Shown here one piece after another: positions 2,826 to 49,592 of a stretch of DNA of 64,000 nucleotides. Both the position numbers and the translations under genes were made by a program. Location: assembly GCF_900109545.1 (NCBI RefSeq), contig NZ_FOAP01000010.1:62001-126000 (forward strand), read 5' to 3'. The DNA is from Stigmatella aurantiaca (GTDB lineage Bacteria; Myxococcota; Myxococcia; Myxococcales; Myxococcaceae). The notes below the pieces were generated by a model. That model did not search any database. It was not told where the DNA came from and saw only the letters and a list, made by a program, of their open reading frames with translations. Position 1 is the stretch's first letter, and every line of letters starts with the position of its first letter.

Positions 2826-5759
<2,934 letters not shown>

Positions 5760-5924
5760 AGGGGGCTGGTCTATACTGAAAAGGTGTTCCGGTGACCCGG
5801 TTTATTGGGTAGGAAGCCGTTGGATGGTCCTGAACGCTTGGCGTTGCAACCGGAATCCCCAGCGGCCCGGAGGGCAGGTGTCCTTGGGGGCCACCAGGGC
5901 TTGGGCTACGGTGGGACGCACCTC

Positions 5925-6824
5925 ATGAAGGGCTTTTCGGTCCCCGAGCGCTGGCGCGGCCTGCCGCTGCTCATGTTTTCCAGCTTTCTCTTCGCGCTCA
6001 TGGCCCTGTTCGCCCGGATGCTCTCGGGGCGGCTGTCGGTGGGGCAGGTGGTCTGCGGCCGGTTCGCCGTGGGGCTCGTCTTCCTGGCGCTCTACTACCC
6101 GGTGATGGGCCACCGGCCCCGCTTTGGCCGGCCGCTGCTCTGGTCCCTGCGCGGCATCTTCGGCGGCATCTCGGTCTACCTCTACTTCGTCTGCATTGAC
6201 CTGGTGGCGGTGGGGCCTGCGGTGCTGCTCAACGCCTGCTGGCCCATCTACGGCGCCATCCTGGGTTACTACTTCCTCAAGGAGCAGGTGAGCGGCCCGC
6301 TCCTGGGCGGGCTCGTGCTGACGACGGTGGGGGCGGGGCTCGTCATCTGGGGCACGTCGATGGTGACCTCCAGCCTGTCCTTCGGGCTGGGGGCGTGGGC
6401 GGGCATGTTCTCGGCCGTCTTCAGCGGCGCAGCCGTGGTCGCCCTGCGCGCCCTGCGCAACGACACGGATCCAGCCACCGTCTTCCTGTCCTTCTGCGTC
6501 TTTGGTCTGCTGTTCGGCCTTCCGTTCGCCCTGGCCGACTGGCGGCCCCTCGCGGCGGACACGGTGGGGCTGCTGTTGGCGGTGGGGCTGTCCTCGGCGG
6601 TGGCCCAGATGATCTTCACCTACGCCATGGGTCACGTCACCACGGCCATGGGCGGCGTGGGCTCGCAGCTCACCCCCGTCTTCTCCTGGCTCCTGGGCGC
6701 CGTGTTCCTCACCGAGCCCGTGGCGCCGCTGGCCCTGCTGGGCGCGGCCCTGTGCATCCTGGGGGTGCTCTGGGGCACGGGGCTCTTGCGCAAGCTCCTG
6801 GCGCCCGCCGCCGTGCAACCCTAG
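5925..6824 (+). CDS. EamA/DMT-family membrane transporter
   Basis: The 299-residue product has about ten hydrophobic helices in two similar halves, as in the drug/metabolite transporter superfamily with two EamA domains. Recognisable pieces are LFARMLSGRLSVGQVVCGRF in the first half and AQMIFTYAMGHVTTAMGG in the second, followed by LTPVFSWLLGAVFLTEPVAP, the typical last-but-one EamA helix pair. The frame is open upstream to 5805, but the ATG at 5925 puts the first helix close to the N-terminus and is preferred. The substrate cannot be predicted; family members export amino acids, metabolites or drugs. It is divergent from uvrA with a 165-base gap. Confidence 0.88.
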   Translation: MKGFSVPERWRGLPLLMFSSFLFALMALFARMLSGRLSVGQVVCGRFAVGLVFLALYYPVMGHRPRFGRPLLWSLRGIFGGISVYLYFVCIDLVAVGPAVLLNACWPIYGAILGYYFLKEQVSGPLLGGLVLTTVGAGLVIWGTSMVTSSLSFGLGAWAGMFSAVFSGAAVVALRALRNDTDPATVFLSFCVFGLLFGLPFALADWRPLAADTVGLLLAVGLSSAVAQMIFTYAMGHVTTAMGGVGSQLTPVFSWLLGAVFLTEPVAPLALLGAALCILGVLWGTGLLRKLLAPAAVQP

Positions 6825-6868
6825 CGGCCCCTGGGGAGCGTGGTTTCTCCTGTCCCCGGGTGGGCAGT

Positions 6869-6885
6869 CCTGAAAAAAATTCAGG
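6869..6885. repeat. Perfect inverted repeat with A-tract spacer upstream of the ASH/VWA lipoprotein
   Basis: CCTGAA, five A, TTCAGG forms a perfect 6-5-6 inverted repeat in the 213-base gap before the large lipoprotein gene, about 150 bases before its start codon. No T run follows the right arm, so it is not a standard terminator. The symmetric arms around a stiff A-tract resemble a dimer operator, though no regulator is identifiable. Confidence 0.4.
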
Positions 6886-7037
6886 GGCCGGGACGGGGTG
6901 GAGACTTCCCTTCCCTGTGCATTCCCGCCTTTTTCCCCAGTCTGGCGGGCGGTTTGCCCGGTGGGCCCCCCGGCTTCCCTGCCTGGGCATTCCCGTTGCA
7001 ACAGCCCTCCTGGACGGAGTCTGGGGAGGCGGCGCTT

Positions 7038-10001
7038 ATGTGGGGACGTCGGTGGGCTTGGCTGGTGGCGTGGGCGTGCGTGGCGGGGGGGCTGAGCGGG
7101 TGTGACCGGCAGAGCTCCGGCAACCGCGCGCGCACGGGCTTCGCCGCACGGCCCCAGGCGCTGGAGTTTGGCCCGGCGGCGATCGGCTCCACCAAGACGG
7201 TGAAACTCCGGGTGGCCAACGAGGGCCGGGCCCCGCTGCGCGTGGAGGGGGCCTCCTCCAGCGTGCCCAACGTGGAGATTGCCCCGTTCGAGCCCTTCTC
7301 GCTGAGCGCGGGGGGCGAGGCCGAGCTGGAGGTGCGCTTCTCGCCCGCCGTGGAGGGCACGGTGCAGGGCGTGGTGGACATCCTCACGGACGCGGACTCG
7401 GACGGGGCCGCGGGCTCGCAGGTGAACTTCGCGGGCCAGGGCGTGAAGGCCTGGGTCGAGGTGCGCAGCCAGGAGCTGGATTTTGGCAACGTGGCGCTGG
7501 ACACCGTGCAGGTGCTCACGCTGCGCCTGCGCAATTCCTCCCGCGTGGAGAGCCCGCTGCGGCTGCGCATGGCCGGGGCGGACGCGGATCAGTTCTCCTC
7601 CAGCACGGCCGGGCCGGAGCTGATGTTGCAGCCGGGCGAGGAGCAGGCCCTGCCCATCGCGTTCAAGCCGCGCCGGCTGGGCGTGGCCTCCGCCGAGGTG
7701 AGCGTGGAGGTGTGCGAGGGCTGCGCGCCCATCGCCGTGCCGCTCAAGGGCATGGGCATCGCCTCGCAGCTGGATATTTCTCCCCTGCGGGTGGACTTCG
7801 GCAACGTGGCGCTGGGGGCCACGGCCGAGGAGCGCATCATGGTGCGCAACCTGGGCACCTCGCCCATGAGCTACCAGGGCGCGCGCCTCCTCGAGGGCGC
7901 CGGTGAGTTCCGCCTGCTGAGCGCGGTGGTGCCCCCGGGCGGTGTCCTGAATCCGGGACAGGCCGCGGAGATCCGCGTGGCGTTCGCGCCGTCGCGGCTC
8001 GGCGCGCTTCCCGAGGCGCGGGTGGAGATCGACGTGAAGGCCACCGGCTCGGCCGCGCCCGCGCCCAAGGTGGCCCTGAGCGGGGAGGGCGGCTCCTCGT
8101 GCGTGACGGTGCTGCCGCGCGCGCTGGACCTAGGGGGGGTGGCCGAGGGCATGTCCGCCACCCGCGAGGTGAAGGTCATCAACCGCTGCCGCGCCCCGGT
8201 GCTGGTGAGTGACTTGCAGATTGACACGCGGCAGGGCGGGTTCTTCACGCTGGCCCAGGCGCCCGCGAGCACCCCCATCGCCCCCGGCCAGTCGGCCGCC
8301 GTGGGCGTCACCTTCACGCCCCGGGCGGGCGCGGGGCAGGGCGAGGCCCAGCTCTCCGTGTCCGTGCGCAGCGGCGGCACCACCTCCACCGAGGCGGTGA
8401 CGCTCAAGGGGAACGGCAAGGCGCTCCCGCCGTGCCAGTACGCGGTGTCCCCGGCCACGCTCGACTTCGGCCGGGTGCCGGTGGGCGCGGAGGTGGTGCT
8501 GGGCACCTCCGTGCGCAACACGGGCGCCACGGAGTGCTACCTCGCGGGGCTGCAGCTCGCCTCGGGCTCGGACGGGGCCTTCAGCGCCCCGCCGGTGACG
8601 GGCGCGCTGCTGGCCCCGGGGCAGAAGGCGCAGCTGCTCGTCCGGTTCAAGCCGGAGGCGGAGGCCTCCTATGGTGGCTTGGCGGAGGGCTGGGTGAACC
8701 ACCCGTCCAATGGGCACCCCACCGTGAACGTGGTGGGCGAGGGGGTGAAGGGCTGCTTCGCCGTTCAGCCCACGCACCTGGAGTTTGGCCTCTCGCAGCT
8801 CACGTGCGCGCCGCGCACGCAGGACGTCATCGCCTACAACGGCTGCGCGGGCCCGCTCACCGTCCAGGGGCTGCAGGTGCAGCAGGACAGCGCGGAGTTC
8901 CAGCTCTCGGAGGTGCCCACCTTCCCGGTGACGCTGGAGGCGGGCGGGCAGTTCCGGCTGCGCGCCACCTACGCGCCGGAGAACGAGGGCGTGGACGCGG
9001 CGGCGCTGCGCTTTGAGCTGGGGCCGGACTCCATCTACACCGCGAGCCTGCTGGGCAAGGGCGTGAGCAAGGCGGAGCAGACCGACACGTTCTTCCAGGA
9101 GTCCGAGGCCAAGGTCGACGTGCTCTTCGTCGTGGACAACTCGGGCTCGATGATGGAGGAGCAGCAGAGCCTGGGCAGCAACTTCGCCGCCTTCCTGAGC
9201 TCCGCCAACACCGCGGGCGTGGACTACCACATCGGCGTCACCACCACGGGCCTGGATGCCTCGCCGGGCGGCTGGTCCGCGTGCCTGGGCGGCGCCGAGG
9301 GCGGTGAGAACGGCCGGCTCTTCCCGGTGGATGGCGCCTCGCCGCGTGTCATTACGCCCACCACGCCGAACGCCTCGTCCGTCTTCGCCCACAACACGCA
9401 GGTGGGCGTGTGCCACTGGAACGAGCAGGGGCTGGAGGCCGCCTACCGGGCCCTGTCCCAGCCGCTGCTGCACAACACGGATGATCCGCGCACCGCGCAG
9501 GCCGCGGACGGCAACGGCGGCTTCCTGCGCGAGGACGCGCGGCTGGCGCTCATCTTCCTCACCGACGAGGAGGACTTCTCCCCCCAGCCGGTGGCCTTCT
9601 ACGAGACGTACTTCCGCGCGCTGAAGAACAACGAGGCCTCCAAGCTGAGCGTCTCGGCCATCGTGGGGCCCACGAACCTGTCCACCTGCGTGACGGCCAG
9701 CAGCTCGGGCGCGCGCTACATCCAGCTCGCGGAGGCCACCGGCGGCGTCGTGGAGAGCATCTGCACGCCGAACTGGGCCGAGTCCCTCAAGAAGCTCTCG
9801 TCCAACACCTTCGGGCCCAACCGCTCCTTCCCGCTGTCCGAGCAGCCGGAGAATCCCTCGCAGATCTCCGTCACGGTGGATGGGGTGCCGGTGACGTCCG
9901 GTTGGCATTACAACCCAGACACCCGCGCCATCCTCTTCGAGGCGCAGGCCGCTCCCCCTCCAGGCGCCCTGGTAGAGGTGACGTACCCGCTCGGGTGCTG
10001 A
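7038..10001 (+). CDS. Choice-of-anchor D (ASH) repeat lipoprotein with C-terminal VWA domain
   Basis: The 987-residue protein begins with a lipoprotein signal (WAWLVAWACVAGGLSGC), so it is probably an outer-membrane or surface lipoprotein. Six repeats of about 105-120 residues follow, each opening with a motif like ALEFGPAAIGST, ELDFGNVALDT, RVDFGNVALG, ALDLGGVAEG, TLDFGRVPVG or HLEFG. These are ASPM/SPD-2/Hydin-type immunoglobulin-like domains. From about residue 690 a von Willebrand A domain carries the metal site DNSGSM (DxSxS). The start at 7038 is chosen for GGGAGG nine bases upstream and the signal peptide. A role in adhesion or surface assembly is inferred. An intrinsic terminator follows at 10032. 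Confidence 0.88.
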   Translation: MWGRRWAWLVAWACVAGGLSGCDRQSSGNRARTGFAARPQALEFGPAAIGSTKTVKLRVANEGRAPLRVEGASSSVPNVEIAPFEPFSLSAGGEAELEVRFSPAVEGTVQGVVDILTDADSDGAAGSQVNFAGQGVKAWVEVRSQELDFGNVALDTVQVLTLRLRNSSRVESPLRLRMAGADADQFSSSTAGPELMLQPGEEQALPIAFKPRRLGVASAEVSVEVCEGCAPIAVPLKGMGIASQLDISPLRVDFGNVALGATAEERIMVRNLGTSPMSYQGARLLEGAGEFRLLSAVVPPGGVLNPGQAAEIRVAFAPSRLGALPEARVEIDVKATGSAAPAPKVALSGEGGSSCVTVLPRALDLGGVAEGMSATREVKVINRCRAPVLVSDLQIDTRQGGFFTLAQAPASTPIAPGQSAAVGVTFTPRAGAGQGEAQLSVSVRSGGTTSTEAVTLKGNGKALPPCQYAVSPATLDFGRVPVGAEVVLGTSVRNTGATECYLAGLQLASGSDGAFSAPPVTGALLAPGQKAQLLVRFKPEAEASYGGLAEGWVNHPSNGHPTVNVVGEGVKGCFAVQPTHLEFGLSQLTCAPRTQDVIAYNGCAGPLTVQGLQVQQDSAEFQLSEVPTFPVTLEAGGQFRLRATYAPENEGVDAAALRFELGPDSIYTASLLGKGVSKAEQTDTFFQESEAKVDVLFVVDNSGSMMEEQQSLGSNFAAFLSSANTAGVDYHIGVTTTGLDASPGGWSACLGGAEGGENGRLFPVDGASPRVITPTTPNASSVFAHNTQVGVCHWNEQGLEAAYRALSQPLLHNTDDPRTAQAADGNGGFLREDARLALIFLTDEEDFSPQPVAFYETYFRALKNNEASKLSVSAIVGPTNLSTCVTASSSGARYIQLAEATGGVVESICTPNWAESLKKLSSNTFGPNRSFPLSEQPENPSQISVTVDGVPVTSGWHYNPDTRAILFEAQAAPPPGALVEVTYPLGC

Positions 10002-10031
10002 TCCCCGGAGTCGGGATGCACCCAGGCGCAT

Positions 10032-10064
10032 GAGAGGACCCCCCGGGTCCTTCTCTTCAATTTT
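10032..10064 (+). terminator. Intrinsic terminator after the ASH/VWA lipoprotein
   Basis: GAGA-GGACCC, a three-base loop, GGGTCC and TCTC form a ten-pair stem with one bulged T, followed within six bases by TTTT. It lies 31 bases after the stop codon. Confidence 0.65.
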
Positions 10065-10157
10065 CTCTCAGCACTGTTTTCAACGCCTGTAGGGAAATCC
10101 CTCTCGACAGCGGGAGGGGGCCACGGCACTTTGAAGGCTCACGCCGAAGGCCTTGCA

Positions 10158-11075
10158 ATGTCCACACAATCTCTCCTCATCGCGGGTGTGGGAGACATCC
10201 ATGGACGCTTCCACCGGGTGGAAGCGTGGATGGAGGTGTTGGAGAAGGCGCGGGGCCGGCCGGTGGACCTGGTGCTGGCGGTGGGGGACGTGGAGGCCTT
10301 CCGGCGCGCGGATGATCAGCGCCGCAAGATGACCAAGCGCCTCATGCCCGCCGAGTTCGCCGAGTACGCGGATGGGCAGCGGCAGATGAAGCGGCCGCTG
10401 TACTTCATCGGTGGGAACAACGAGGACTTCGAGGCGCTCCACGACGCGCCGGAGGGCATGGAGCTGGCCCCCCAGGTGTATTACCTCGGGCGGGCGGGGC
10501 TCCAGACGCTGCGGGGGCTGCGCGTGGCGTACCTCTCGGGCATCCACGCCCCGCGCTTCTTCGAGCAGCCGCTCAAGCGGCCCCGGGCGCTCGATACGGC
10601 GAAGCAGGCCGGCTACTTCCGTGCGCCCGAAGTCGAGCGCGTCATGCACGCGCGGGACGTGGACCTGTTGCTGGTGCACGAGTGGCCCCGGGGCATCGTG
10701 CAGCGGGCGCGGGACGAGAACACCCCTTCGGCCCGGCCCCTGCCGTCGTATTGGATTGGCAATCCCATCACGCGCCGGTTGGCGGACACGCTGCGGCCCA
10801 AGTGGATGTTCTGTGGCCACTCCCACAAGGGCTTCGCGGTGTCCCTGGGCGGCGAGAGCGGACGGCCGGTGACGCGCATTGCCTGTCTGGATCAGGCGGC
10901 GCGGCCGGATGAGGCGGTGTTCTGGCTGGAGTTCGAGAACCGCGAGCCCGTGCGCGGCGGCTGGGGCCTGTCCGGCGCGGTGGCCTGGCAGGCCGGGGCG
11001 CCGTGGAACCTTCAATCGCTGCCCGCGGCAGGGCCCCACGCCGCCTTGCCGGAAGAGGAGCGGGAGCTGGGGTGA
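10158..11075 (+). CDS. Dbr1-like metallophosphoesterase
   Basis: The 305-residue calcineurin-like phosphoesterase has the metal-ligand motifs GDIHG (D13, H15), GDVEAFR (D44), GGNNE (N87), HEW (H174) and GHSH (H221, H223). Beyond these general motifs, the layout matches the eukaryotic RNA lariat debranching enzyme Dbr1: GDxxAxR, FIGGNxE, APxxYYLGxAG, a following SGI, then HEWPRGI (HDWPRSI in Dbr1), GNP...L.PKWMF and GHSH. Two differences show. The first motif has the canonical Asp where Dbr1 has Cys, and the usual GNHE is GNNE. ATG 10158 is preferred over the upstream TTG at 10131 (GAAGG seven bases before). It is monocistronic. Substrate unknown; cleavage of 2'-5' branched nucleic acid is only an inference. 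Confidence 0.85.
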   Translation: MSTQSLLIAGVGDIHGRFHRVEAWMEVLEKARGRPVDLVLAVGDVEAFRRADDQRRKMTKRLMPAEFAEYADGQRQMKRPLYFIGGNNEDFEALHDAPEGMELAPQVYYLGRAGLQTLRGLRVAYLSGIHAPRFFEQPLKRPRALDTAKQAGYFRAPEVERVMHARDVDLLLVHEWPRGIVQRARDENTPSARPLPSYWIGNPITRRLADTLRPKWMFCGHSHKGFAVSLGGESGRPVTRIACLDQAARPDEAVFWLEFENREPVRGGWGLSGAVAWQAGAPWNLQSLPAAGPHAALPEEERELG

Positions 11076-40061: not shown

Positions 40062-41633
40062 ATGGTGGGTTCACTTCTCAACTCGATGATGCTGGGTCTC
40101 CTGGTCGCTCAGGCGCCAGGCGGCATGACGTTCGATGGGCGCGAGGTCAGCGCCAGGACGACGTCCTCGGTGGGCTTCTTCGCCCAGGGGACGACTCCCT
40201 TCCCCAACCTGTGGGAGCGCGGCACCGGCTCGGCCAGCCTCACGGTCGAGGACCGGGTGTTGGACCCCAGCGCCAGCTACGGTGACAAGGCCCGCGTCGA
40301 GGCCCGCTTCCGGCTGGGCACCTCCGAATATCAAATCGAGCTGACCCAGCCCGGCTTCCCGCCTGCCCAGGTGTCCGGGGCAGCGGCCGCTGGGTCGCTT
40401 CCCCGGCCTGGTCATCCCGTGGGCGGCGGTGTCCTGGTGGATCAGGATGTCTACGGCAACAGTGGGCTTGGCTGGATGGCGACCACCCGGGTGCATGCGG
40501 CCGCGGCCGTCTGGGGCGTGGGGCGTGTGTCGCTCAACGGACGGTTGCTGACGGACTCGGCCATCATCCACGCCGCGGCGCTGTCGCACGGTGCCCAGGC
40601 CGATGACGACACTCACATCACGCTGCCCCAGGCCCGCACGGGTGACGCGGAGCTTCAGGTGCTCGTGTGGAACCTGCCGCTCAACGTCGAGCCCCGGGGC
40701 TTCCTGCAGCTGTCCTTTGATGATGTGCAGATCGACTTCGACGGCACGGTGTTGAAGTCCTTGGCCCAGGTTCCGAATGTCTCCGAGCAGCCCCAGAACC
40801 CGATGAGCCTCGCGTCGTCCCTGGGCGGGGTGAGCCTGGCGACGCCGCTGGCGCCCCCCTCGCGTCCGGGCGATGGGCTCGGCGGCAGCGGCTTCTCCGT
40901 GGAGGGGACCGCGGTGACGGGGCTTCCTGGTGGGCCCATCACCCCGGTCGGCCCGGGGGTGCTTGGCGGCCCGGCGTCCCCGGATCCCTCCGTCATTCCC
41001 GGCTTCAGTGTGGGGACGGAGGGCGTCGCGGTGGGCTCGGCGGACTCGCTGACCGCCATTGCTCCCGCGCCGGTGGTGCGGGGGGGCGCGGTGACGCCGG
41101 ACACCATCAGTGGCTCATTCCCCACCCGGGGTGCGCCGACGCCGCCCGCGAACATCTCGGGGGTGATGCCGGGCACGCCCGCGCCGGGCTCGCAGCTCGC
41201 GCTGGAGAGCCAGGGCCTCGTGGGCGCGCCCCCTCCGGGAGGCCCGGCGGAGGCAGGGGTGGCGATGCCGCGCTCCGCGGGGGCCACCGCCTCCACGCAG
41301 GGCTCCTTCACCGTGGTGCCCATCTCTCCGCCCAACTTCACCACCTTCTCGGGCACGCCGCAGATCAGCCCGGGCCTCATCGCGACGCCGCCACCCATGG
41401 GAACGGATGTGACGATTCCCACGCCGCCGCTCCTGGGCTCGCCGGCCCCGCTCACCGCCGCGAACGCGCCGCCGCTCCTGGGCACGCCCGCGCCGCTCAA
41501 TGCCGCGCCCGCGCCCGGCCTGGTGGGCACGCCCTCGCCGGCCAATGCCTTCCCCCTGGCCCCGAGCGTGGGGGCCCCGGCCCCGGGCTTCATCGCGCCG
41601 GCGGGGGGCACCGGGGTGCCGCCCTCCATCTAA
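40062..41633 (+). CDS. Exported Pro/Gly/Ala-rich repeat protein of unknown function
   Basis: The 523-residue product has an N-terminal signal-like helix (MVGSLLNSMMLGLLVAQA). Residues about 20-240 are a folded beta-rich region (VSARTTSSVGFFAQGTTPFP, GDAELQVLVWNLPLNVEPRG). The remainder is low-complexity Pro/Gly/Ala/Thr sequence. At the C-terminus four degenerate 15-residue tandem repeats (residues 455-514) start PPLLGSPAPL, PPLLGTPAPL, PGLVGTPSPA and APSVGAPAPG. AAGGAGG six bases before ATG 40062 decides the start. A surface or matrix protein is plausible, but I do not recognise the family. Confidence 0.8.
   Translation: MVGSLLNSMMLGLLVAQAPGGMTFDGREVSARTTSSVGFFAQGTTPFPNLWERGTGSASLTVEDRVLDPSASYGDKARVEARFRLGTSEYQIELTQPGFPPAQVSGAAAAGSLPRPGHPVGGGVLVDQDVYGNSGLGWMATTRVHAAAAVWGVGRVSLNGRLLTDSAIIHAAALSHGAQADDDTHITLPQARTGDAELQVLVWNLPLNVEPRGFLQLSFDDVQIDFDGTVLKSLAQVPNVSEQPQNPMSLASSLGGVSLATPLAPPSRPGDGLGGSGFSVEGTAVTGLPGGPITPVGPGVLGGPASPDPSVIPGFSVGTEGVAVGSADSLTAIAPAPVVRGGAVTPDTISGSFPTRGAPTPPANISGVMPGTPAPGSQLALESQGLVGAPPPGGPAEAGVAMPRSAGATASTQGSFTVVPISPPNFTTFSGTPQISPGLIATPPPMGTDVTIPTPPLLGSPAPLTAANAPPLLGTPAPLNAAPAPGLVGTPSPANAFPLAPSVGAPAPGFIAPAGGTGVPPSI
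41424..41603 (+). repeat. Four 45-base tandem repeats inside the Pro-rich gene
   Basis: Units begin at 41424, 41469, 41514 and 41559 and encode 15 residues each with a common P-L/V-G-x-P-x-P core. The first two are the most alike; the third and fourth have drifted. Confidence 0.7.
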
Positions 41634-41643
41634 AGGAGGGGGA

Positions 41644-41675
41644 GTGGCCGGGGTGAAAAATTGACCCCCGGCCAC
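41644..41675 (+). terminator. Putative GC-rich terminator hairpin without T run
   Basis: GTGGCCGGGG and CCCCGGCCAC form a perfect ten-pair stem with a 12-base A/T-rich loop, 10 bases after the stop of the Pro-rich gene. No T run follows, so termination would need Rho or be partial. Confidence 0.5.
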
Positions 41676-41695
41676 AGGGCTGTAGCGTCCTGTGC

Positions 41696-42073
41696 ATGCC
41701 GACGTTCGCTGCAGCCCTCTCCCGTCCCTCCACCCCGCGGAGCGATCCGCTGCGTGAGGCCGTGGAGAGCCTGTCCGCGGCGCTCCCGGCCCGTGCGGAC
41801 GCGGCGGTGCTCGTGGAGCTTCTGGAGGATGATCTCCGGGAGGGGCTCGACGCGCTGGGGGACGTGGAGGCGCACTTCTCCGAAGTCATCGAGGCACTGG
41901 GGGCGGAGCAGCCCTCGCCCATCGCGCTGCTCTCGGTGGCCGACGAGCAGCGGGTGCTTCAGCGGCTCGACACCCTGATGGACGTGGTGACGCAGGTGCG
42001 CCGCCGGCTCGCGAAGGCGTCGGGGCTGCTCAGAGCGAGCCCAAGAACTTCACCAACGCCTTTCGGTCGCTGA
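41696..42073 (+). CDS. Small helical protein of unknown function
   Basis: The 125-residue predicted protein is soluble and rich in Leu, Ala, Glu and Asp with heptad-like spacing (AAVLVELLEDDLREGLDALG, VLQRLDTLMDVVTQVRRRL). I do not recognise a family. Its last 15 codons overlap the end of the convergent di-heme gene by 44 bases, and the final residues (SPRTSPTPFGR) look non-conserved, so the true C-terminus may be recent. The ATG at 41696 has no strong ribosome site. It is probably real because of its amphipathic helix pattern and position in an otherwise uncoded gap. Confidence 0.55.
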   Translation: MPTFAAALSRPSTPRSDPLREAVESLSAALPARADAAVLVELLEDDLREGLDALGDVEAHFSEVIEALGAEQPSPIALLSVADEQRVLQRLDTLMDVVTQVRRRLAKASGLLRASPRTSPTPFGR

Positions 42074-43352
42074 CCGGCAGCTTCCGGAACTGCTCCCGGG
42101 AGCGCTCCGCTTCGCCGCCGTGCCAGAGGATGGCCTCCTCCAGCGTGCGGGCCCGGCCATCGTGGAGGTAGCCCGAGTAGGGCAGCACCGTCTGGGTGAG
42201 CCCCAGGCCCCACAGCGGCGCGGTGCGCCACTCCTGCCCGGTGGCGATTCCATCCGGACGGCCATCCGCGAGCCCTGCTCCCAGGTCGTGCAGGAGCAGG
42301 TCCGTGTACGGGTGGATGCGCTGGTGGCGGAGGTCCGCGAGCACATCGGGGCCGGTGTGCAGCGTCTCCCGGTGGCACCGCTCGCAGCCCAGGGCCTGGA
42401 ACTGGTCCTCGCCCCGCTGGGTCTCCGCGTCGTCGAGCAGATCCCTCGCCGGCACCGCGAGCGTGCGCGCGTAGAAGGCCGCGGCCTCCAGCGTGTGGAG
42501 GGGAAGCTCGTGGGTGCCGTCCGCCTCGGGGAACAGGGGCGTCGTCACGCCCATGTCGTTCAGGTAGGCCTCGGCCGACTGCTGGAGCAGGGTGGGGCTG
42601 TTGGCCTTCAGCCCGAACCGCCCGGGCACCAGCGCCTGGCGCTGCACGTCCCAGACTTCATTGAGGCGGCCGGAGATGCCATCCCGGTTCTTGTCGGTGG
42701 GGTCCGCCAGGGCCTGGAGCGTGGAGACCTCCACGGCCTCGAGCAGCCCCAGCCCGAACACGGGGGGCGGCAGGCGCAGCGAGGTGAGCATGCCCGCGGG
42801 CAGCGCCGAGCCATCGCTGGGGGTGATGTGGAGGCGCGGCGCGCGGAGCGAGTAGCGGGTGCCATCCGCGTACGCGCCCTCGGTCTCCACCCACTCCAGG
42901 CGAACGGAGGCCTCCGGCGTCAGCCCGTAGTTGGCCTGGTCGGAAATCTGGGTGCCCAGGCCCGGGACGGGCACGGGGCCATGGGGGTGGGTGGGAACGC
43001 CCTCGGGCATGCTGACGCGCACGAGCAACTGGGTGCGCTGGGGGCCAGGCCCCATCACCGGCATGCCGCGCCCGTTGCGCAGGTGGCAGGCGTTGCAGGA
43101 GTTGTTGTTGAAGAGGGGGCCGAGCCCGGGGTTCACCGGGGCGGGGCCGGGGACGAAGAGGGCCGCGAAGGCCGCATCCCCGGCGCGGTGCAGCGCCAGC
43201 CCTTCCTCGGTGAGGTGGGGCGCCGGCTGCGCGAACGCCAGCGAGGTGCGGTTGTCGATGGTGGTGGCGCCACCGGCCCGCGGGGGCTCCGTTTCCCCAC
43301 AGCCGGCCAGCAGCGCCGTCACCGTGGAGAGCAGGAGCGCCCGGGACACCAC
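42030..43352 (-). CDS. Di-heme c-type cytochrome / DHOR-family lipoprotein
   Basis: The product, about 440 residues, carries a lipoprotein signal (ALLLSTVTALLAGC). Two haem-binding CxxCH motifs are present: CNACH at 86-90 in FNNNSCNACHLRNGRGMP, and CERCH in LGCERCHRETLHTGPD. It matches the di-haem oxidoreductase family (DUF1111, putative peroxidase/thiol oxidoreductase) in motif order, including FGLGLLEAV and WRTAPLWGLG. Such proteins commonly sit beside imelysin genes. The gene follows the imelysin gene by one base (TAG-C-GTG) with GTG starts at 43352 or 43349. A periplasmic redox role in iron handling is inferred. Confidence 0.88.
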   Translation of the reverse strand: MVSRALLLSTVTALLAGCGETEPPRAGGATTIDNRTSLAFAQPAPHLTEEGLALHRAGDAAFAALFVPGPAPVNPGLGPLFNNNSCNACHLRNGRGMPVMGPGPQRTQLLVRVSMPEGVPTHPHGPVPVPGLGTQISDQANYGLTPEASVRLEWVETEGAYADGTRYSLRAPRLHITPSDGSALPAGMLTSLRLPPPVFGLGLLEAVEVSTLQALADPTDKNRDGISGRLNEVWDVQRQALVPGRFGLKANSPTLLQQSAEAYLNDMGVTTPLFPEADGTHELPLHTLEAAAFYARTLAVPARDLLDDAETQRGEDQFQALGCERCHRETLHTGPDVLADLRHQRIHPYTDLLLHDLGAGLADGRPDGIATGQEWRTAPLWGLGLTQTVLPYSGYLHDGRARTLEEAILWHGGEAERSREQFRKLPVSDRKALVKFLGSL

Positions 43353-43353
43353 G

Positions 43354-44454
43354 CTACCGGTTGATGAGCTGGGTGACGTCCGTCTGGAAGGTGTCCTGCG
43401 CCTTGCGGATGGCCTCCTGGGCGGCTTCGATTTCGTCCGCGGCGTTCGGATCCCGGATGGACTCACGGAAGGGCTCGGGGACACGGGCAAGGGCGGCAAT
43501 GGCATCGGTCAGCTCCTGGCGGATCCGGGTATCCAGCTGCGGATTCGCGTCCTTCACGAAGTCAGCGAGAGAGGGGCCCTTGGCCGTGGCCCCGGGCAGG
43601 TGGCCCAGGTAAGCGTTCTCGACACTGCGGATGTTGTTGGTGAAGTCGGACAGCGAGTTGTAGGCGAACTGGCTCTCGACGAGCTCCGGGTCCTTCGCAT
43701 CATAAGGGTCGGCGATCTTCCCGTTGGCCACCTCGTCCAGGATGTTGACGATACCACCCACCATCTCCTGGGCCGCGTTCTGCACGGAGGGGTAGAACGT
43801 GTTGCCCTCCTCTCCGGCCCCGGCGAAGGCGTCGCGGTACGGAGGGCGTCCGTCCACGGACTGGGTCCAGGCGTTCGCCAGCGCGGCGCCAATGTCCCGG
43901 AGCTGCGTGGAGATGGCCTTCAGGTAGTCGAACTCCCGCTGGGTGAAGTCCTGCACCGTCTTCTCGGCGCCCGTGCTGGGGTCCCGCGCGAAGAGCAGGT
44001 ACTCCACGGTGTGGAAGCCCTTGAGCGTGTCCTCCAGGTTGCCCACGTACTCCGGGGTGAAGTCCCTGTTGCTGGCCAACACCGCGTCCAGGTCCGAGCG
44101 GTTCACCGGCCAGCTGTCCAGCGCCGGATCGTACCCGAACGAGTCCACCGGGCCGAAGAGGAAGCCCTCGCTCTGCTCCCACGGTACCCGGGCGTCGAAC
44201 CAGGCCTTCCGGGCGGCCGCGAGGCGCTCGGCGGTGGGCCCCGCGGCGAGCGCGGTGGCCGCCGTGTTCAGGGCCTCCAGCCGCGCGGCGAGCTGCTGGT
44301 AGGTGGGGACCACCACGTCATCGGCGAAGTGGACGATGATCTCCTTGTCGAAGGAGTCCGTGGACGGAGTGGAGTCACCGTCGTCCCCACACGACAGGAG
44401 CGCGAGCGCGCCAGTGAGGGCCAGGGGACGGAGCCAGGAGCGGGAGAAGAGCAT
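43354..44454 (-). CDS. Imelysin-family lipoprotein
   Basis: The 366-residue protein has a lipoprotein signal (LRPLALTGALALLSC) and an imelysin/EfeO-M75-type helical domain. The GxHxxE motif is in LKGFHTVEYLLFAR, and other family pieces are AARKAWFDARVPWEQSEGF and FGPVDSFGYDPALDSWP. Imelysin proteins act in iron uptake in the periplasm; the older peptidase label is doubtful. ATG 44454 starts the signal peptide cleanly, with AAGGA upstream; a GTG at 44472 is the alternative. It lies between the porin and the di-haem gene in one operon behind a Fur-like site. Confidence 0.92.
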   Translation of the reverse strand: MLFSRSWLRPLALTGALALLSCGDDGDSTPSTDSFDKEIIVHFADDVVVPTYQQLAARLEALNTAATALAAGPTAERLAAARKAWFDARVPWEQSEGFLFGPVDSFGYDPALDSWPVNRSDLDAVLASNRDFTPEYVGNLEDTLKGFHTVEYLLFARDPSTGAEKTVQDFTQREFDYLKAISTQLRDIGAALANAWTQSVDGRPPYRDAFAGAGEEGNTFYPSVQNAAQEMVGGIVNILDEVANGKIADPYDAKDPELVESQFAYNSLSDFTNNIRSVENAYLGHLPGATAKGPSLADFVKDANPQLDTRIRQELTDAIAALARVPEPFRESIRDPNAADEIEAAQEAIRKAQDTFQTDVTQLINR

Positions 44455-44475
44455 GTGCGGGGGTTCCTTCACGGG

Positions 44476-45807
44476 TCAGTAGGAGAAGCCGGTGGACAGG
44501 CGCAGGGTGTTCTCGGGGCGGAAGCGTGAGGAGTCCCCCAGGCGGCGGTGCCCGAAGTCGAACTTGGCGAAGAAGAGATCCGCCAGCGTGTAGGCCACGC
44601 CCGCGGTGTAGATGGAGCGGGCGAAGCGGGGGTTGTCGAACAGGTCCGCGCGCGGCTTGAACTGCGAGTCCACGTAGTCGAAGCGCACGAAGGGCTCCAC
44701 CACGTGGTCTCTTCCGAGCCCGAACACCGGGGCCACGTCGCGGCCCAGCTCGGCCCAGGTGGCCAGGGCATGCTCTGCCACGGGGGTGCGCGTCACGTTC
44801 AGGAAGTTGGACAGGCGCGAGTTGCGCGCGGAGATGTCATCCGCGTTCTGGAGGTTGCCCCAGAGCACCAGCGCCTTGGCGCGCCAGGGGCCCTTCTCCA
44901 CGGACAGGTGCGCATCGAGGATGAGCAGGCCCCCGGGCACATAGCCGCACGGGGCCACCTGGCGGCCGTCGCCGGACGCCTCGCACGATTTGACGAGGTC
45001 CGGCTTGGGCCGGTTGCGCGTGGTGCCGCCGTAGTAGCCCGAGGCGCCGAAGACGATGCCCTCGAAGCGGTCCACATCCGCGCGCAGCACCAGCGCCATG
45101 TCCCGGGCCCGCACCATCTCGAAGCGCAGCTGGTGCCCCTCGGCCACCCAGCGCTGGGAGTTGAAAGCCGTGGAGTCCAGGCCGTTGACCGCCTGCGCGG
45201 TGAGCTTCACGGGGCCTAGGTTCGCCCGGGCCTGCAGCCCCATCTCGTGCCAGGTGTTGGGCAGGATGAGCGTCTCGGACTCCGAGCGCACCGTGGCCAG
45301 GTAGTCGGTGGGGCGGGAGTACGCGCTCAGCGTGCCCACCGCCACGTAGAAGCGCCCGATGGCCATGGAGAAGCGCGGGCCGAACTTCTTCTTGAGGACG
45401 AGCTCCTCGACCACCACTTCGCCGCCCTTCTCCACCTCCATCTCGAACTCGCCGAACTCCTCGTACTCGAGCTCCATCGAGGCGCCCGTGCCGCCGTGCT
45501 CGAACTCCACTTCGATTTCGGCTTCGAGGCCGTACTCGGGCAGCTCCGCCTCCAGCTCCAGCGCCAGGCGGGTGGTGTCGAACGTCATCCGCGAGTCGCG
45601 CTGCGAGCCCCCCAGGCGGTTCTGGTTCTCACCGTAGTTGTGGTAGGTGAACTGCAAATCCCCATAGCCCGACATCTTGAATTCCAGGCGGGGCCGCTTC
45701 GGCGCCGCCTCATCCTCCGTGCGCGTCTCGGTGCTGGCGGGAGGGGGCGGATCCGCCAGAACGGGGGCGGCGGACAACAGCACGGCAAGCAAAAGAGCAG
45801 GGCGCAT
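44476..45807 (-). CDS. Outer-membrane porin with glutamate-rich segment
   Basis: The 443-residue protein has a signal peptide (MRPALLLAVLLSAAPVLA) and alternating beta-strand sequence ending in aromatic residues (LSTGFSY), as expected for a barrel. After MSGYGDLQFTYHNYGE the segment 84-135 contains 20 Glu in 52 residues, many at every second position (for example 95-103 and 120-126), so they would face one side of the strands. Two Cys lie in KSCEASGDGRQVAPCGY. It resembles phosphate-selective-type or general porins without exact identity. First gene of the iron-type operon; a promoter with overlapping Fur-like dyad lies 33-62 bases upstream. Confidence 0.85.
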   Translation of the reverse strand: MRPALLLAVLLSAAPVLADPPPPASTETRTEDEAAPKRPRLEFKMSGYGDLQFTYHNYGENQNRLGGSQRDSRMTFDTTRLALELEAELPEYGLEAEIEVEFEHGGTGASMELEYEEFGEFEMEVEKGGEVVVEELVLKKKFGPRFSMAIGRFYVAVGTLSAYSRPTDYLATVRSESETLILPNTWHEMGLQARANLGPVKLTAQAVNGLDSTAFNSQRWVAEGHQLRFEMVRARDMALVLRADVDRFEGIVFGASGYYGGTTRNRPKPDLVKSCEASGDGRQVAPCGYVPGGLLILDAHLSVEKGPWRAKALVLWGNLQNADDISARNSRLSNFLNVTRTPVAEHALATWAELGRDVAPVFGLGRDHVVEPFVRFDYVDSQFKPRADLFDNPRFARSIYTAGVAYTLADLFFAKFDFGHRRLGDSSRFRPENTLRLSTGFSY

Positions 45808-45839
45808 CGGGCGGCGCGCACCCTAGCCGTGTGAAAACG

Positions 45840-45869
45840 ATTATGCAAATCAGACTCATTTTGAGCCAA
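45840..45869 (-). promoter_or_regulatory. Promoter for the porin-imelysin-di-haem operon
   Basis: Read on the minus strand, TTGGCT (45869-45864) and CATAAT (45845-45840, five of six to the -10 consensus) are 18 bases apart. The Fur-like dyad covers the spacer and the upstream end of the -10, as expected for repression by blocking RNA polymerase. Confidence 0.6.
45843..45865. promoter_or_regulatory. Fur-box-like operator
   Basis: ATGCAAATCAGACTCATTTT with following GAG is a dyad centred at 45854; six of nine positions in each half match across the centre. It resembles known GCAAATGAGA-CTCATTTGC ferric uptake regulator sites. Its position over the promoter of an imelysin operon supports iron control; no footprint is available here. 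Confidence 0.6.
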
Positions 45870-45921
45870 AACCATCCACCGGGGCCGGGGCCAGTGGGGG
45901 CGGCTCAGCGGGGGCGGGCGC

Positions 45922-46809
45922 TCACCACTTGAGTTCTTCCTTGCCCGTCTGGGCGCGCTGCTTCTTGTCGCCGGGGCGCGAGTACGCGGTGAGGGTGGCG
46001 CGCACGGCGCCCACGTCCACGGTGCCCACGGCGACGAGCGGCAGGCGGCGCGCGTCATCGGAAATCCACACGTGCACCTCGCGCTGAATCGAGGGCCGGT
46101 CCAGGCGCACCGCGGTGCCCTTGAGGTACCAGGCCTCGAACTCGCCGATGGGCAGGGAGACGTGCTCGCGCTTTTCCACCACGCCCGTCATGCGCCACAG
46201 CTTGCGGATGCCGTACACGTCGAAGCACAGGGGCAGGCCCTCCTTCATGGGTAGCTGGCGCATCAGGTAGATGGCGCCAGCCACATCCAGCCCGTCCTTG
46301 TCATAGGTGTAGAGGGATCGCCCGGAGCGCCCGCCCAGGGTGTAGTCCACCTTGACGGAGCGGTCCTTGGCGCCGAAGGCCACGTCCACCTTGCGCTGCA
46401 CGTCGTTCTCGGTGGCGTTCTCCACGTAGCGCGAGGGCCGCAGCGTGCGCGGGTGCAGGTAGCTCACCGCGGAGCCCTTCACGCGCCGCACCTTGGAGAA
46501 GAAGGCGTTGCTCTGCACGTCGATCTGCACGGGCAGCACGCCCTTGTCGGGGCGGTGGGTGCGCATCGACATCTTCCCCGCCTGGGCGCCCATGGCATCG
46601 AGATCAAACTCCAGGTCCTCGCCGGGCATGAAGGCCAGGGGGCTGGTCAGCGTGGGCAGGGCGGTGGGGCAGAGGGCCACCTTGGAAGCGGCGGGGGCGG
46701 CCTGCGCGGCTTCGGGCTCCTTGTCCTCGGACTGCGCGGCCCCTTGGGCGTAGGTGGTGGTGGCGAGCAGGACGAGACTGGCCGCGAGGGCTGAGCGCAT
46801 GGAGGTCAT
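45922..46809 (-). CDS. Exported DUF3108-family protein (second of two)
   Basis: The 295-residue protein has a signal peptide (LAASLVLLATTTYAQG) and an Ala/Glu linker. The DUF3108 domain follows, with SPLAFMPGEDLEFDLDAMGAQAG, VQIDVQSNAFFSKVRRV, YDKDGLDVAGAIYLMRQLPM and REVHVWISDDARRLPLVAVG. DUF3108 proteins are beta-rich envelope proteins without known biochemical role. It is the third gene of an operon that begins with another DUF3108 gene, separated from the DUF4091 gene by 27 bases. ATG 46809 or 46800 may be used; GAAAGA precedes the first. Confidence 0.85.
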   Translation of the reverse strand: MTSMRSALAASLVLLATTTYAQGAAQSEDKEPEAAQAAPAASKVALCPTALPTLTSPLAFMPGEDLEFDLDAMGAQAGKMSMRTHRPDKGVLPVQIDVQSNAFFSKVRRVKGSAVSYLHPRTLRPSRYVENATENDVQRKVDVAFGAKDRSVKVDYTLGGRSGRSLYTYDKDGLDVAGAIYLMRQLPMKEGLPLCFDVYGIRKLWRMTGVVEKREHVSLPIGEFEAWYLKGTAVRLDRPSIQREVHVWISDDARRLPLVAVGTVDVGAVRATLTAYSRPGDKKQRAQTGKEELKW

Positions 46810-46836
46810 TCTTTCAGGAGCGGCGGGGAAACGGAC

Positions 46837-48501
46837 TCAACGAGGGACGCCCGGGCGCTTCGCATATTCGGAGTTTTCCCAGCGGGCGCGAAGCCGGGAA
46901 GTCAGGGCCTGGCGGACCGTGTCCCATTCGGCGGGAGACGGCTCGATTTCATAGCCCGAGCGGGTGAGCCGCCGCGCCAGGGCCTTGGCGCTCTCCGCAT
47001 CCCCGAGCTTCGCCAGCAGGTGGAGGTACTCGTAGTCCTCCAGCCCGTCGCGCAGGTGCTTGAGCCGCAGGGACACCACGGGCTGGTGCGTGGAGGTGCC
47101 CAGGCGCTGGGGGGTGCCCGGGTAGAAGAGGGTGCCGTCGCCGTTGCCGCCGAACTCGAAGAGGTTCTTCCACGGGTCCTGCGTGTTGTAGGCGAAGACG
47201 GTGTCGAAATAGAGCTCGCCATCCACGCCGGTGAGGAACGCCAGCGGCCCCATGGCCCGGTTGAGGGGGGCGGGGTGGTCCACCATGTAGGAGGCCCAGC
47301 CGGTATAGGCCCGCTCGGTGGCGGCCTCGGTCATGGGCCCACCGTTGCAGCCGTGGGAGTTGCAGCTCTGATACCACCAGACCTTGGTGTCCGCGGGCAG
47401 GCGCGCGCGCAGCTTGGAGATCGGCAGGATGTTGCGGCACGTCTGGGGCCCTGGCCGGGGGAAGAAGCAGTTGAGGGTGGGGGTGAGGATGTCCGCCGTT
47501 CCCTTCAGGGCCTCGTCCAGCGGTGAGGTGACGAGCACGGGAATCTTGCCGGCCGCGCGCACCCGCTTCGACTGCGTGTGCACCAGGGGCACGTCCTCCG
47601 GCTTCGGCTCGTCCTTGGCGTAGAAGAAGAGCTGGGCGTCCCAGCCCTTGCTCTTGAAGTGCTCGGCGAAGGCCCGGTAGTACGCGACCTTCTCTTCCTC
47701 GGTGCTCGCCTTGCGGCTGTCCCGCACGTCCGCGGTGGTGAAGCGGGCGCCGGAGGGCAGCAGGCTCCCGTCGAGGAAGGGGGCCATCTCCGCGTCATAG
47801 GCCTGGAAGTCCACCACCGCGCGGCCCTTCTCGAAGCGCACCGGCGGCGCATCCATGCCCAGGCCATGCGCGCTCACCCGGTGCTCCAGCAGGGTGCGCG
47901 CGTAGTCGCGCAGCAGCTTCTGCGCCTCCGGGGACTCCGGCGCCACGCCATGTCCCTTGGCGATGCTGTAGAGCGAGATGCCAAAGCTCGTGGGCAGCGA
48001 GGCCGTGGCGGGCAACACGAAGGGCTGCACCTCCACCGTGAAGGGCACTGCCGCCATCGCCTTCGCGTCCGCCTTCACGCGCAGCTCGCCACGGTACTTG
48101 CCGGGCGCCTGCGCCTCGGGGGCGCACACCTCCACGTAGAGGACGGTGGGCAGGGACGGCTCTCCCGGCGTCTCCACGGGAACGAGCGCGTCCGGCCAGG
48201 GGCCCGTGCGGCCCTGGCTGTTGGACGGCGTCTTCACGTCCAGGTAGGCCTCGCGCCAGACCGAGGCCGTCAGGGACTGGCCCTCGGCCCGGAGCGTCAG
48301 CGGCTGGGCCGTGACGCGCTCGATGGCGCCCGGGAGCACCACCTGGGTGGCCTCGCACTCTCCCCGGGCCACGCTCAGCTTGGCCTCGGCGCGGCCTTCC
48401 ACCGCGGCGCCGGGCCGGACCTTGATCAGCGGAGAAACGACCTTCGGCTCCGGCGATGCGGCCAGCACCGCCGTGAGCACCCACGCCCATCCTGCTCCCA
48501 T
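46837..48501 (-). CDS. Exported DUF4091 glycoside-hydrolase-like protein
   Basis: The 554-residue product has a short signal peptide (GAGWAWVLTAVLAAS). An N-terminal beta-sandwich (about 20-160) precedes a TIM-barrel-like region (FGISLYSIAKGHG, AFAEHFKSKGWDAQLFFYAKDEP) with candidate catalytic acids D and E in the KDEP motif. It ends in the DUF4091 signature zone (WGLEDYEYL-like: RLKHLRDGLEDYEYLHLLA). DUF4091 occurs at the end of putative glycoside hydrolases. The substrate is unknown. It lies between two DUF3108 genes in one transcript; its start has GGTGGAGAG directly before the ATG. Confidence 0.85.
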   Translation of the reverse strand: MGAGWAWVLTAVLAASPEPKVVSPLIKVRPGAAVEGRAEAKLSVARGECEATQVVLPGAIERVTAQPLTLRAEGQSLTASVWREAYLDVKTPSNSQGRTGPWPDALVPVETPGEPSLPTVLYVEVCAPEAQAPGKYRGELRVKADAKAMAAVPFTVEVQPFVLPATASLPTSFGISLYSIAKGHGVAPESPEAQKLLRDYARTLLEHRVSAHGLGMDAPPVRFEKGRAVVDFQAYDAEMAPFLDGSLLPSGARFTTADVRDSRKASTEEEKVAYYRAFAEHFKSKGWDAQLFFYAKDEPKPEDVPLVHTQSKRVRAAGKIPVLVTSPLDEALKGTADILTPTLNCFFPRPGPQTCRNILPISKLRARLPADTKVWWYQSCNSHGCNGGPMTEAATERAYTGWASYMVDHPAPLNRAMGPLAFLTGVDGELYFDTVFAYNTQDPWKNLFEFGGNGDGTLFYPGTPQRLGTSTHQPVVSLRLKHLRDGLEDYEYLHLLAKLGDAESAKALARRLTRSGYEIEPSPAEWDTVRQALTSRLRARWENSEYAKRPGVPR

Positions 48502-48519
48502 CTCTCCACCTTTCGCGGC

Positions 48520-49329
48520 TTAGCCGTCGGTGCTGCGGGCCACCTGGTTCATCGTCAGCAGGCGGCCGGGTTTGTACTCGGTGAGTTCCGCCACGATGGT
48601 GCCCAGCACGAAGTCCGCCTCGAGGCGCACCGGCACGTGGCTGGGGTCCGTCGTGAAGTACAGGGTGATGTCGCGCCGGGTCTGCAGCTTCTCGGAGAAG
48701 TCCGTCTGGACCGACACGCGGAACACCTCGCGCGGCCCCATGGGCGTCTTCATCTGCTGGCGGCCTTCCACCTTGGCGCGCATCACGAAGCTCTTGCTGC
48801 CGGTGAAGACGGGGGCGGAGTACTCCTGGCCGTCAGCGAGCCCCTGGCGGCGCAGCCCGAACGCGGCGCTGGCCACGTCCATCGTGCCCTCGGGCAGCTC
48901 GTGCGTGGACTCGGTGGGCTGCGCGCCTTCCTTCTGCCGGATGACCCGCGCGGACTTGCCCCCGTCCTCCAGCTGGATGCGCTGGCGGCGGCGCTTGTGG
49001 TTCTCGTCGGCGAAGAAGTCACTGCCCAGCGAGCGCTGGCCGTCCTCGCCCCAGTACGTCACGAACTTGTCCTTGATGGGCCAGGCGCTGGCCATCGAGT
49101 CCGTCTTCGCCAGGGAGATGATGGGCCACACCTTCTGGCCCCACTGCTGCATCGGCGCGCCGACGGTGATCTGCGCGGTGCCCGCCGTCACCCCCAGGTA
49201 CTGGACGCGGTAGAGCGCCTGCTCGCCAGGCCCGAAGGACGGGTTGGCCACCTGGGCACCCGCCGTGCCCGCCATCAGCAGCAATCCGGACAGCAGTCCC
49301 GTCATCGCACCTGTGAACCGCTTGTGCAT
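48520..49329 (-). CDS. Exported DUF3108-family protein (first of two)
   Basis: The 269-residue protein has a signal peptide (TGLLSGLLLMAGTAGAQVA). The DUF3108 domain shows FGPGEQALYRVQYLGVTAGTA, ADENHKRRRQRIQLEDGG, MDVASAAFGLRRQGLADGQE and ITLYFTTDPSHVPVRLEADF. It is a paralogue of the third gene in the same operon, though the two are only distantly alike. The start at 49329 has GAGGGAGC at the right distance; an upstream frame extension to 49425 lacks similarity. Role: probably periplasmic or outer-membrane-associated, unknown. Confidence 0.87.
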   Translation of the reverse strand: MHKRFTGAMTGLLSGLLLMAGTAGAQVANPSFGPGEQALYRVQYLGVTAGTAQITVGAPMQQWGQKVWPIISLAKTDSMASAWPIKDKFVTYWGEDGQRSLGSDFFADENHKRRRQRIQLEDGGKSARVIRQKEGAQPTESTHELPEGTMDVASAAFGLRRQGLADGQEYSAPVFTGSKSFVMRAKVEGRQQMKTPMGPREVFRVSVQTDFSEKLQTRRDITLYFTTDPSHVPVRLEADFVLGTIVAELTEYKPGRLLTMNQVARSTDG

Positions 49330-49592
49330 GTCTGAGCTCCCTCGCTCGGGATCCTGCCCTCCGGACAGCCGGTAGGGCGAAGAATGTAGGCAGCCGGCCT
49401 GAGCGCCGCCAACCGCCTCCCCCAATCATTGCCGGAAGCGGACCATTCCCCGGACGGGGGTTTGCCTCCGGCATTCAAAGGGGGATTGCCGAGGTGGGAG
49501 CATGTGGCAGTGGGATTGCTCCGCTGCTAGCCTGGGGACCAGGCGGTGCCCCGGGCACCGTGGCTCAATGCTCGCGTGAGGAGGGTTGGCGC

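Follow-up and report, generated by a model that had tools for sequence, protein, structure and literature searches.

Why should a porin gene head an operon that otherwise encodes an imelysin and a di-haem protein, and does iron control that operon? The question arises from a 64,000-nucleotide stretch of the Stigmatella aurantiaca genome (contig NZ_FOAP01000010.1, positions 62,001 to 126,000; hereafter the window), in which three genes lie close together on the minus strand. The first encodes an outer-membrane porin of 443 aa (45807-44476), the second an imelysin (Peptidase_M75) predicted to be a lipoprotein (44445-43354), and the third a DHOR-type di-haem protein, likewise a predicted lipoprotein (43352-42030, with a GTG start at 43352 or 43349). 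The locus is best explained, with a probability of roughly 0.7, as a Fur-repressed iron-acquisition operon of the imelysin/DHOR type that has its own outer-membrane entry channel. Iron-responsive regulation of the operon has good support and is probable, with induction when iron is low. An initial annotation had proposed an iron acquisition route with a dedicated outer-membrane porin. This core idea is supported by a conserved Fur-like element, by Fur boxes in poribacterial copies, by the linkage of the three genes, by FTR1 and ferritin neighbours and, as far as the available part of the source goes, by low-iron induction in Bacteroides (PMC10434189), whereas, judged by the orthologous promoters, the hexamers that the annotation named are wrong, and the dyad is degenerate.

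Genes, promoter and Fur-like element

The three genes, with about 30 nt between porin and imelysin and 1 nt between imelysin and DHOR, are borne out by the open reading frame coordinates and, for the latter two, by Pfam matches. The imelysin is the only one in the genome; it matches PF09375 at 2.6e-73 (residues 46-351 on profile positions 2-286 of 288) and carries the GxHxxE motif as GFHTVE, which places it in Peptidase_M75. The solved structures nearest to it are 3n8u and 4ecg. The third gene product belongs to the DHOR family by its match to PF06537 (5e-99, 332.5 bits) and its two CxxCH motifs (CNACH and CERCH), and a sequence search of solved structures found no relative for it. Lipobox-like N-termini can be read in both the imelysin (LLSC) and the DHOR (LAGC). 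The window porin, searched alone, had no Pfam match.

The promoter had first been placed at TTGGCT (45869-45864) and, after 18 nt, CATAAT (45845-45840), on the minus strand at 45840-45869. This pair is literally present and is the sole sigma-70-like site in 41500-47000 (0.1 expected in shuffles), but it is not conserved: among nine orthologous promoters, TTGRCT occurs at that spacing in three and CATAAT in four. All nine, which come from the same genus and two further genera, keep TTGCAW-17/18-TAGGGT. In the window, this second pair consists of TTGCAT (45848-45843), a 17-nt spacer and TAGGGT (45825-45820), giving a likely minus-strand promoter at 45820-45848, 12 nt ahead of the ATG. The comparison was extended with a profile hidden Markov model of the porin, which found 35 genomes above 400 bits among 195 of the phylum; in the 30 of these whose loci were read (nine of them already known), imelysin follows porin every time. 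TTGCA-17/18-TAGGGT is present in 24 of the 30 loci, a set that includes the nine orthologous promoters, and in the other six TTGCA is paired with TACGGT (five) or TAGCTT (one). Because TTGCAW-17/18-TAGGGT is conserved and TTGGCT-18-CATAAT is not, the true promoter is probably about 20 nt downstream of the pair named first. Across the orthologous promoters the porin ATG lies 11-13 nt past TAGGGT, so the operon mRNA is probably near-leaderless.

Upstream lies a DUF3108 gene (45922-46809, minus strand), a conserved neighbour that is held to be outside the system. It is followed by a terminator-like hairpin (45876-45897, minus strand), and at the same position several relatives have clear G+C hairpins with T runs that close the DUF3108 gene. 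Such an arrangement would leave the operon with a transcription start of its own, and it is probably transcribed apart from the DUF3108 gene. In one relative, just upstream of 4404 in L027 (G020), the promoter region reads GGTTTGCAAAATCATTTGCAAACC, with an extra 9-bp inverted repeat, seen by eye, between -35 and -10. A search of plasmid DNA with the promoter gave no match.

The -35 hexamer and most of the spacer of this likelier promoter are covered by a Fur-like element, TCAAAATGAGTCTGATTTGCATAATCGTTTTCA (45832-45864, minus strand), which consists of three overlapping 21-bp matches in 6-bp steps. A Fur-box profile derived from the same genome gives the three registers 24.2, 20.7 and 19.4 bits, against at most 12.0 elsewhere in the 64 kb, and when the AT-rich 46-nt patch is shuffled, 0.16% of the trials attain 19.4 bits. 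The profile comprises eight canonical boxes out of 11 candidate rows; those left out were L052 (phosphatase neighbour), L054 (RCC1 protein neighbour) and the second strand of the L047 site. Its sites were picked with a preset consensus pattern, which biases it to canonical boxes. The genes beside the eight boxes encode a major facilitator superfamily transporter, HmuY, a short-chain dehydrogenase, TonB, a ferritin-like protein, an extracytoplasmic function sigma factor, a TonB-dependent plug and a siderophore-interacting protein.

In the central register, the scores of the nine orthologous sites span 14.8-21.4 bits, and element and promoter are retained with small changes in 30/30 loci. Conservation runs about 10 bp upstream of -35 (TGAttCtG). 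By eye, the element of one relative (G002) forms a 7-bp inverted repeat with a 9-bp spacer; in the window, an inverted-repeat search found no arm pair at 45843-45865, and the textbook Fur 19-mer does not occur at up to 3 mismatches. The dyad matching Fur sites that the initial annotation had set over the spacer and -10 stands in part: the site matches the genome's own Fur profile, is the best in the window and is conserved, but it is degenerate, yields no clean dyad, and overlaps the -35 and spacer of the conserved promoter rather than the spacer and -10. Fur itself would be the protein that binds it. A wider regulon of the exact element was considered and rejected: a one-mismatch match occurs only here, and all 14 other matches in the genome need three.

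Could the supposed Fur site be no more than a promoter that is conserved and has an AT-rich spacer, or else belong to an unrelated regulator? The overlap of TTGCA with the -35 and the degeneracy of the element would fit such an account. However, conservation reaches beyond the -35 on its upstream side, the profile score is double the next best in the window, and Fur boxes stand at the same operon in Poribacteria, all of which make this account improbable.

Spread of the trio and its iron context

A scan for the porin family, made with one genome per species and without linkage as a search criterion, gave 160 confirmed loci, of which the best 80 are described here. By record titles, these are assigned to Poribacteria (45), Myxococcota (13), Bacteroidota including Kapaibacteria (11), Latescibacteria (3) and Gemmatimonadetes (2), with one locus each from Calditrichaeota, Rhodothermales, Aliifodinibius, Methylococcales, Sulfurovum and an unclassified metagenome-assembled genome. 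In 78/80 loci, spanning about ten phyla, phmmer searches with the window imelysin and DHOR found both genes on the porin's strand; in the two exceptions (L126 and L141) the contig ends before the missing genes. One locus, L181, has the order imelysin-DHOR-porin. The partner proteins keep their characteristic features: GxHxxE is found in 79/81 imelysin segments and two CxxCH motifs in 77/79 DHOR segments, and lipobox-like ends are found in 76/81 and 65/79, respectively. The window operon shows both features that define this trio, namely the order porin-imelysin-DHOR and the acidic loop described below.

The linkage extends to plasmid records. Among those with a 27-30% identical porin, from Parabacteroides, Phocaeicola, Bacteroides, two Prevotella and Pseudoalteromonas, imelysin adjoins the porin in 6/6 (partial in L218) and DHOR in 5/6, and the imelysin of Parabacteroides aligns with the solved 4ecg at 855 bits across 380 residues. 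A phage-collection search with the porin returned one unannotated fecal record. An imelysin tree, reduced by random thinning to 78 rows, places the porin-linked sequences in a group separate from the porin-free myxobacterial ones; support for this split is modest (80/79), and several branches are long.

Variants of the arrangement were also seen. Other myxobacterial genera (L086-L090) have imelysin-DHOR-imelysin clusters, some with an extra DHOR, that are without this porin and resemble the Pseudomonas aeruginosa arrangement. Three poribacterial trios (L127, L132 and L135) have a NUDIX-type gene between imelysin and DHOR, and the latter two also a small lipoprotein gene. Near-identical trios labelled Latescibacteria and Gemmatimonadetes (L118, L119, L120, L122 and L123) were either transferred recently or binned wrongly. 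Some genomes that are otherwise complete match the trio-type porin over a short or interrupted stretch (G114:C1:6799399-6800027, G147:C1:665238-665570 and G124:C1:8630265-8630618), probably a sign of decayed copies.

Upstream of the porin, 35/77 loci (34 Poribacteria and L115) agree with the Fur consensus at 16 or more of its 19 positions, compared with 6/1841 control windows, which were taken from the same loci and are mostly coding; the remaining three of the 80 loci have too little upstream DNA or no start. The poribacterial copies bear near-perfect Fur boxes, and these 34 are not independent because these Poribacteria are related. Two loci, L178 and L181, have FTR1 iron permease genes next to the trio, and 7/80 loci contain ferritin-like genes; the S. 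aurantiaca genome has one FTR1 gene, away from the operon. Porin-free imelysins of the order (L092-L100) also have Fur-like boxes upstream. A second Fur-linked DHOR locus is perhaps present at L101 (G000:C16:15500-27500, positions 3030-10479), where an RCC1-repeat lipoprotein and another DHOR gene occur together with a Fur-like box, a further envelope-type frame and a second Fur-family gene (8720-9205).

Expression data from a similar locus point in the same direction. In the available part of PMC10434189, BT2473-BT2482 of Bacteroides thetaiotaomicron (peptidase M75, thiol oxidoreductase, porin, CcsA, hypothetical) is induced 63- to 324-fold when iron is depleted, and a colitis data set shows a 14- to 33-fold increase. 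This locus is like the window operon in its M75, thiol oxidoreductase, porin and hypothetical genes and in its low-iron induction, but it also has CcsA, fimbrillin and helix-turn-helix genes, and that part of the source lists it without a mechanism.

These data also bear on the identity of the metal. The module might import copper, zinc or manganese instead, the iron response being indirect or mediated via a paralogue of the Fur family, for instance Zur or PerR. The core of the element differs from the genome's canonical boxes (GATTTGCATAATC), a second Fur-family gene is present, acidic loops are not iron-specific, and the solved imelysin of such an operon, 4ecg, holds calcium in a Glu/Asp pocket according to the accessible portion of PMC9174327. 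Such a metal is nevertheless quite unlikely in view of the textbook Fur boxes in Poribacteria, the FTR1 and ferritin neighbours and the low-iron induction in Bacteroides reported in the accessible text of PMC10434189.

Two neighbourhoods flank the operon in the window. A 125-aa reading frame on the plus strand (41696-42073) is convergent with the operon and overlaps the DHOR 3' end by 44 nt. On the other side, at 45922-49425 (minus strand), a GH123-like gene is flanked by two DUF3108 genes; this gene and the nearer DUF3108 gene are kept upstream of the porin-imelysin-DHOR operon in 8/8 close relatives read.

The porin fold and its acidic loop

AlphaFold2 models the window porin as a 16-strand barrel (pLDDT 84.4, pTM 0.82) and a poribacterial member with a closely similar strand order plus an extra low-confidence loop hairpin (87.6 and 0.84). 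The best solved structural matches are OprO (4rjw; Z 26.6, 15% identity) and OprP (Z 26.4, 14%), and superposition of the predicted model on 4rjw, with a root-mean-square deviation of 3.6 over 314 residues, assigns it to the OprO/OprP fold; that other folds are missing from this comparison does not count against them. At the sequence level, a search of solved structures with the porin family gave no match, and the window porin does not match Porin_O_P (PF07396) at 0.01; of the members of the porin family, 19/66 reach PF07396 at E <= 0.01. The family alignments comprised 61 of the 80 loci with five near sequences added (A4) and 55 of the 80 together with the window (A5). The porin thus shares with OprP/OprO its closest structural resemblance but differs from them in its low identity, in an acidic loop and in its linkage to imelysin and DHOR.

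This acidic segment (residues ~103-130) lies between strands 3 and 4 and corresponds to the predicted extracellular loop L2, with the pattern E-x-E-F-E-H-G-G-T-G...ELE-x-EEFGEFE-x-E-x-E-x-GGE. All 81 rows have 8-10 acidic residues in segment 103-130, with a median net charge of -8, and E99, E101, E103, H104, G106, G108, E124, G128 and G129 are invariant in them; the invariant residues of the porin also include Trp186 and Tyr258. EEFGEFE itself is found in 76/81 rows, a count biased by its use as a search word. In the 30 profile-search loci it is exact in 14, and the rest have conservative variants (E-to-D or F-to-Y). An example from gut and oral members, seen in 5/6 of them, is EYGGTG...YEENGEYETEIEKGGE. 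None of the 11 remote paralogues has the acidic segment, and the flanks examined around them contain neither imelysin nor DHOR.

Could the porin be a general solute channel that happens to sit in an iron-regulated operon, with imelysin and DHOR acting alone? This would be in keeping with the porin-free imelysin-DHOR clusters of the order and with the service of OprO/OprP-like folds to other solutes. Such a role is hard to square with a linkage that holds in 78/80 loci over about ten phyla, with a loop found only beside imelysin, and with the separate grouping of porin-linked imelysins in the tree, and it appears rather improbable. A porin-cytochrome conduit for extracellular electrons was also considered and rejected, as a 16-strand barrel seems too narrow for a 45-kDa di-haem protein. 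In the available text of PMC5609570, Riemerella has a 'Vitamin K-dependent gamma-carboxylase' adjoining imelysin, which prompted the idea, and only that, of a gamma-carboxylated Glu-rich loop.

A proposed iron route and its meaning

In the proposed iron-acquisition route, Fur would leave the element over the -35 and spacer when iron is scarce, and the TTGCAT-17-TAGGGT promoter would then produce the near-leaderless porin-imelysin-DHOR mRNA. The acidic L2 of the porin, a predicted 16-strand OprP/OprO-like barrel, would gather iron at the cell surface, as ferrous or ferric ions that would then pass through the barrel. The imelysin lipoprotein would bind the incoming iron at its HxxE site, the di-haem lipoprotein would alter its oxidation state, and the iron would be handed on to an inner-membrane permease encoded elsewhere. 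Several points of this scheme we infer: that L2 binds iron, that the barrel lets iron pass, and in what direction and with what role DHOR carries out its redox step. The periplasmic site that the initial annotation gave to this step is putative, as imelysin and DHOR are lipoprotein-like in sequence and may reside at the outer membrane. A more specific version, possible but tentative, is that the porin is a TonB-free channel dedicated to inorganic iron: the acidic hairpin gathers, the barrel conducts, and the lipid-anchored imelysin and di-haem enzyme trap and redox-gate at the periplasmic mouth, which would make import vectorial.

The di-haem protein could have another task. MauG and MbnH are di-haem enzymes that modify a partner protein encoded next door. 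By this precedent, DHOR would oxidise side chains of the imelysin or the porin into a metal site rather than act as redox partner of the transiting iron. DHOR does accompany imelysin, and the porin has the invariant Trp186 and Tyr258, but no candidate target residue stands out, and we consider such a modifier unlikely.

The proposed iron route has partial parallels among known systems. Fur-regulated imelysin/DHOR iron operons, in the available part of PMC3143127, likewise place imelysin beside a DUF1111/DHOR-type di-haem protein under Fur control and with a role in iron. The P. aeruginosa operon described there differs in having two imelysins and no porin, and the word 'porin' does not appear in that part of the source. 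Free ferrous iron is usually said to pass general porins by drift (PMC9478572, in the portion available). The EfeUOB/M ferrous-iron transporter resembles the trio in combining an imelysin-type protein (EfeO/M) with a haem peroxidase, and two copies of the trio adjoin FTR1/EfeU-type genes. In contrast to EfeUOB/M, the window operon has no permease and adds an outer-membrane channel, and its imelysin does not reach the cut-off of the EfeO equivalog (NF041757; 37.1 vs 270 bits).

Several points weigh against a Fur-controlled iron route with its own channel. OprP and OprO are anion channels. Loop L2 is of low confidence in the models, and the invariance of EEFGEFE in the best-80 scan is partly a product of selection with that search word. 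The degenerate element scores 24.2 bits in its best register and 19.4-20.7 in the two others, values at the bottom of the range of the eight training sites (22.4-32.9 bits, each left out in turn) or beneath it, and the overlapping -35 accounts for part of its conservation. The genome has two Fur-family genes, either of which may encode the acting regulator. The cross-phylum Fur evidence comes from Poribacteria (34/35 matches) and one unclassified metagenome-assembled genome; Bacteroidota copies have no significant Fur box with this consensus, and the Riemerella boxes in the available text of PMC5609570 look different. Finally, BT2473-BT2482 was matched to the window operon by gene types.

In searches of one open-access library, no paper was found that describes this porin as part of imelysin/DHOR systems, and within that scope the porin as a constant imelysin/DHOR partner, together with its acidic loop, looks new. 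A dedicated outer-membrane route for inorganic iron becomes testable through a porin family tied to imelysin/DHOR, with a loop found only in imelysin-linked members. The same framework provides a function to test for genes named 'porin' or 'hypothetical' beside imelysin in gut Bacteroidales; the B. thetaiotaomicron locus, which has genes of the same types, shows strong induction under low iron and in colitis, according to the accessible part of PMC10434189. If the porin is indeed a TonB-free iron channel, the trio would be an old, transferable module common to soil predators, Poribacteria and human gut bacteria.

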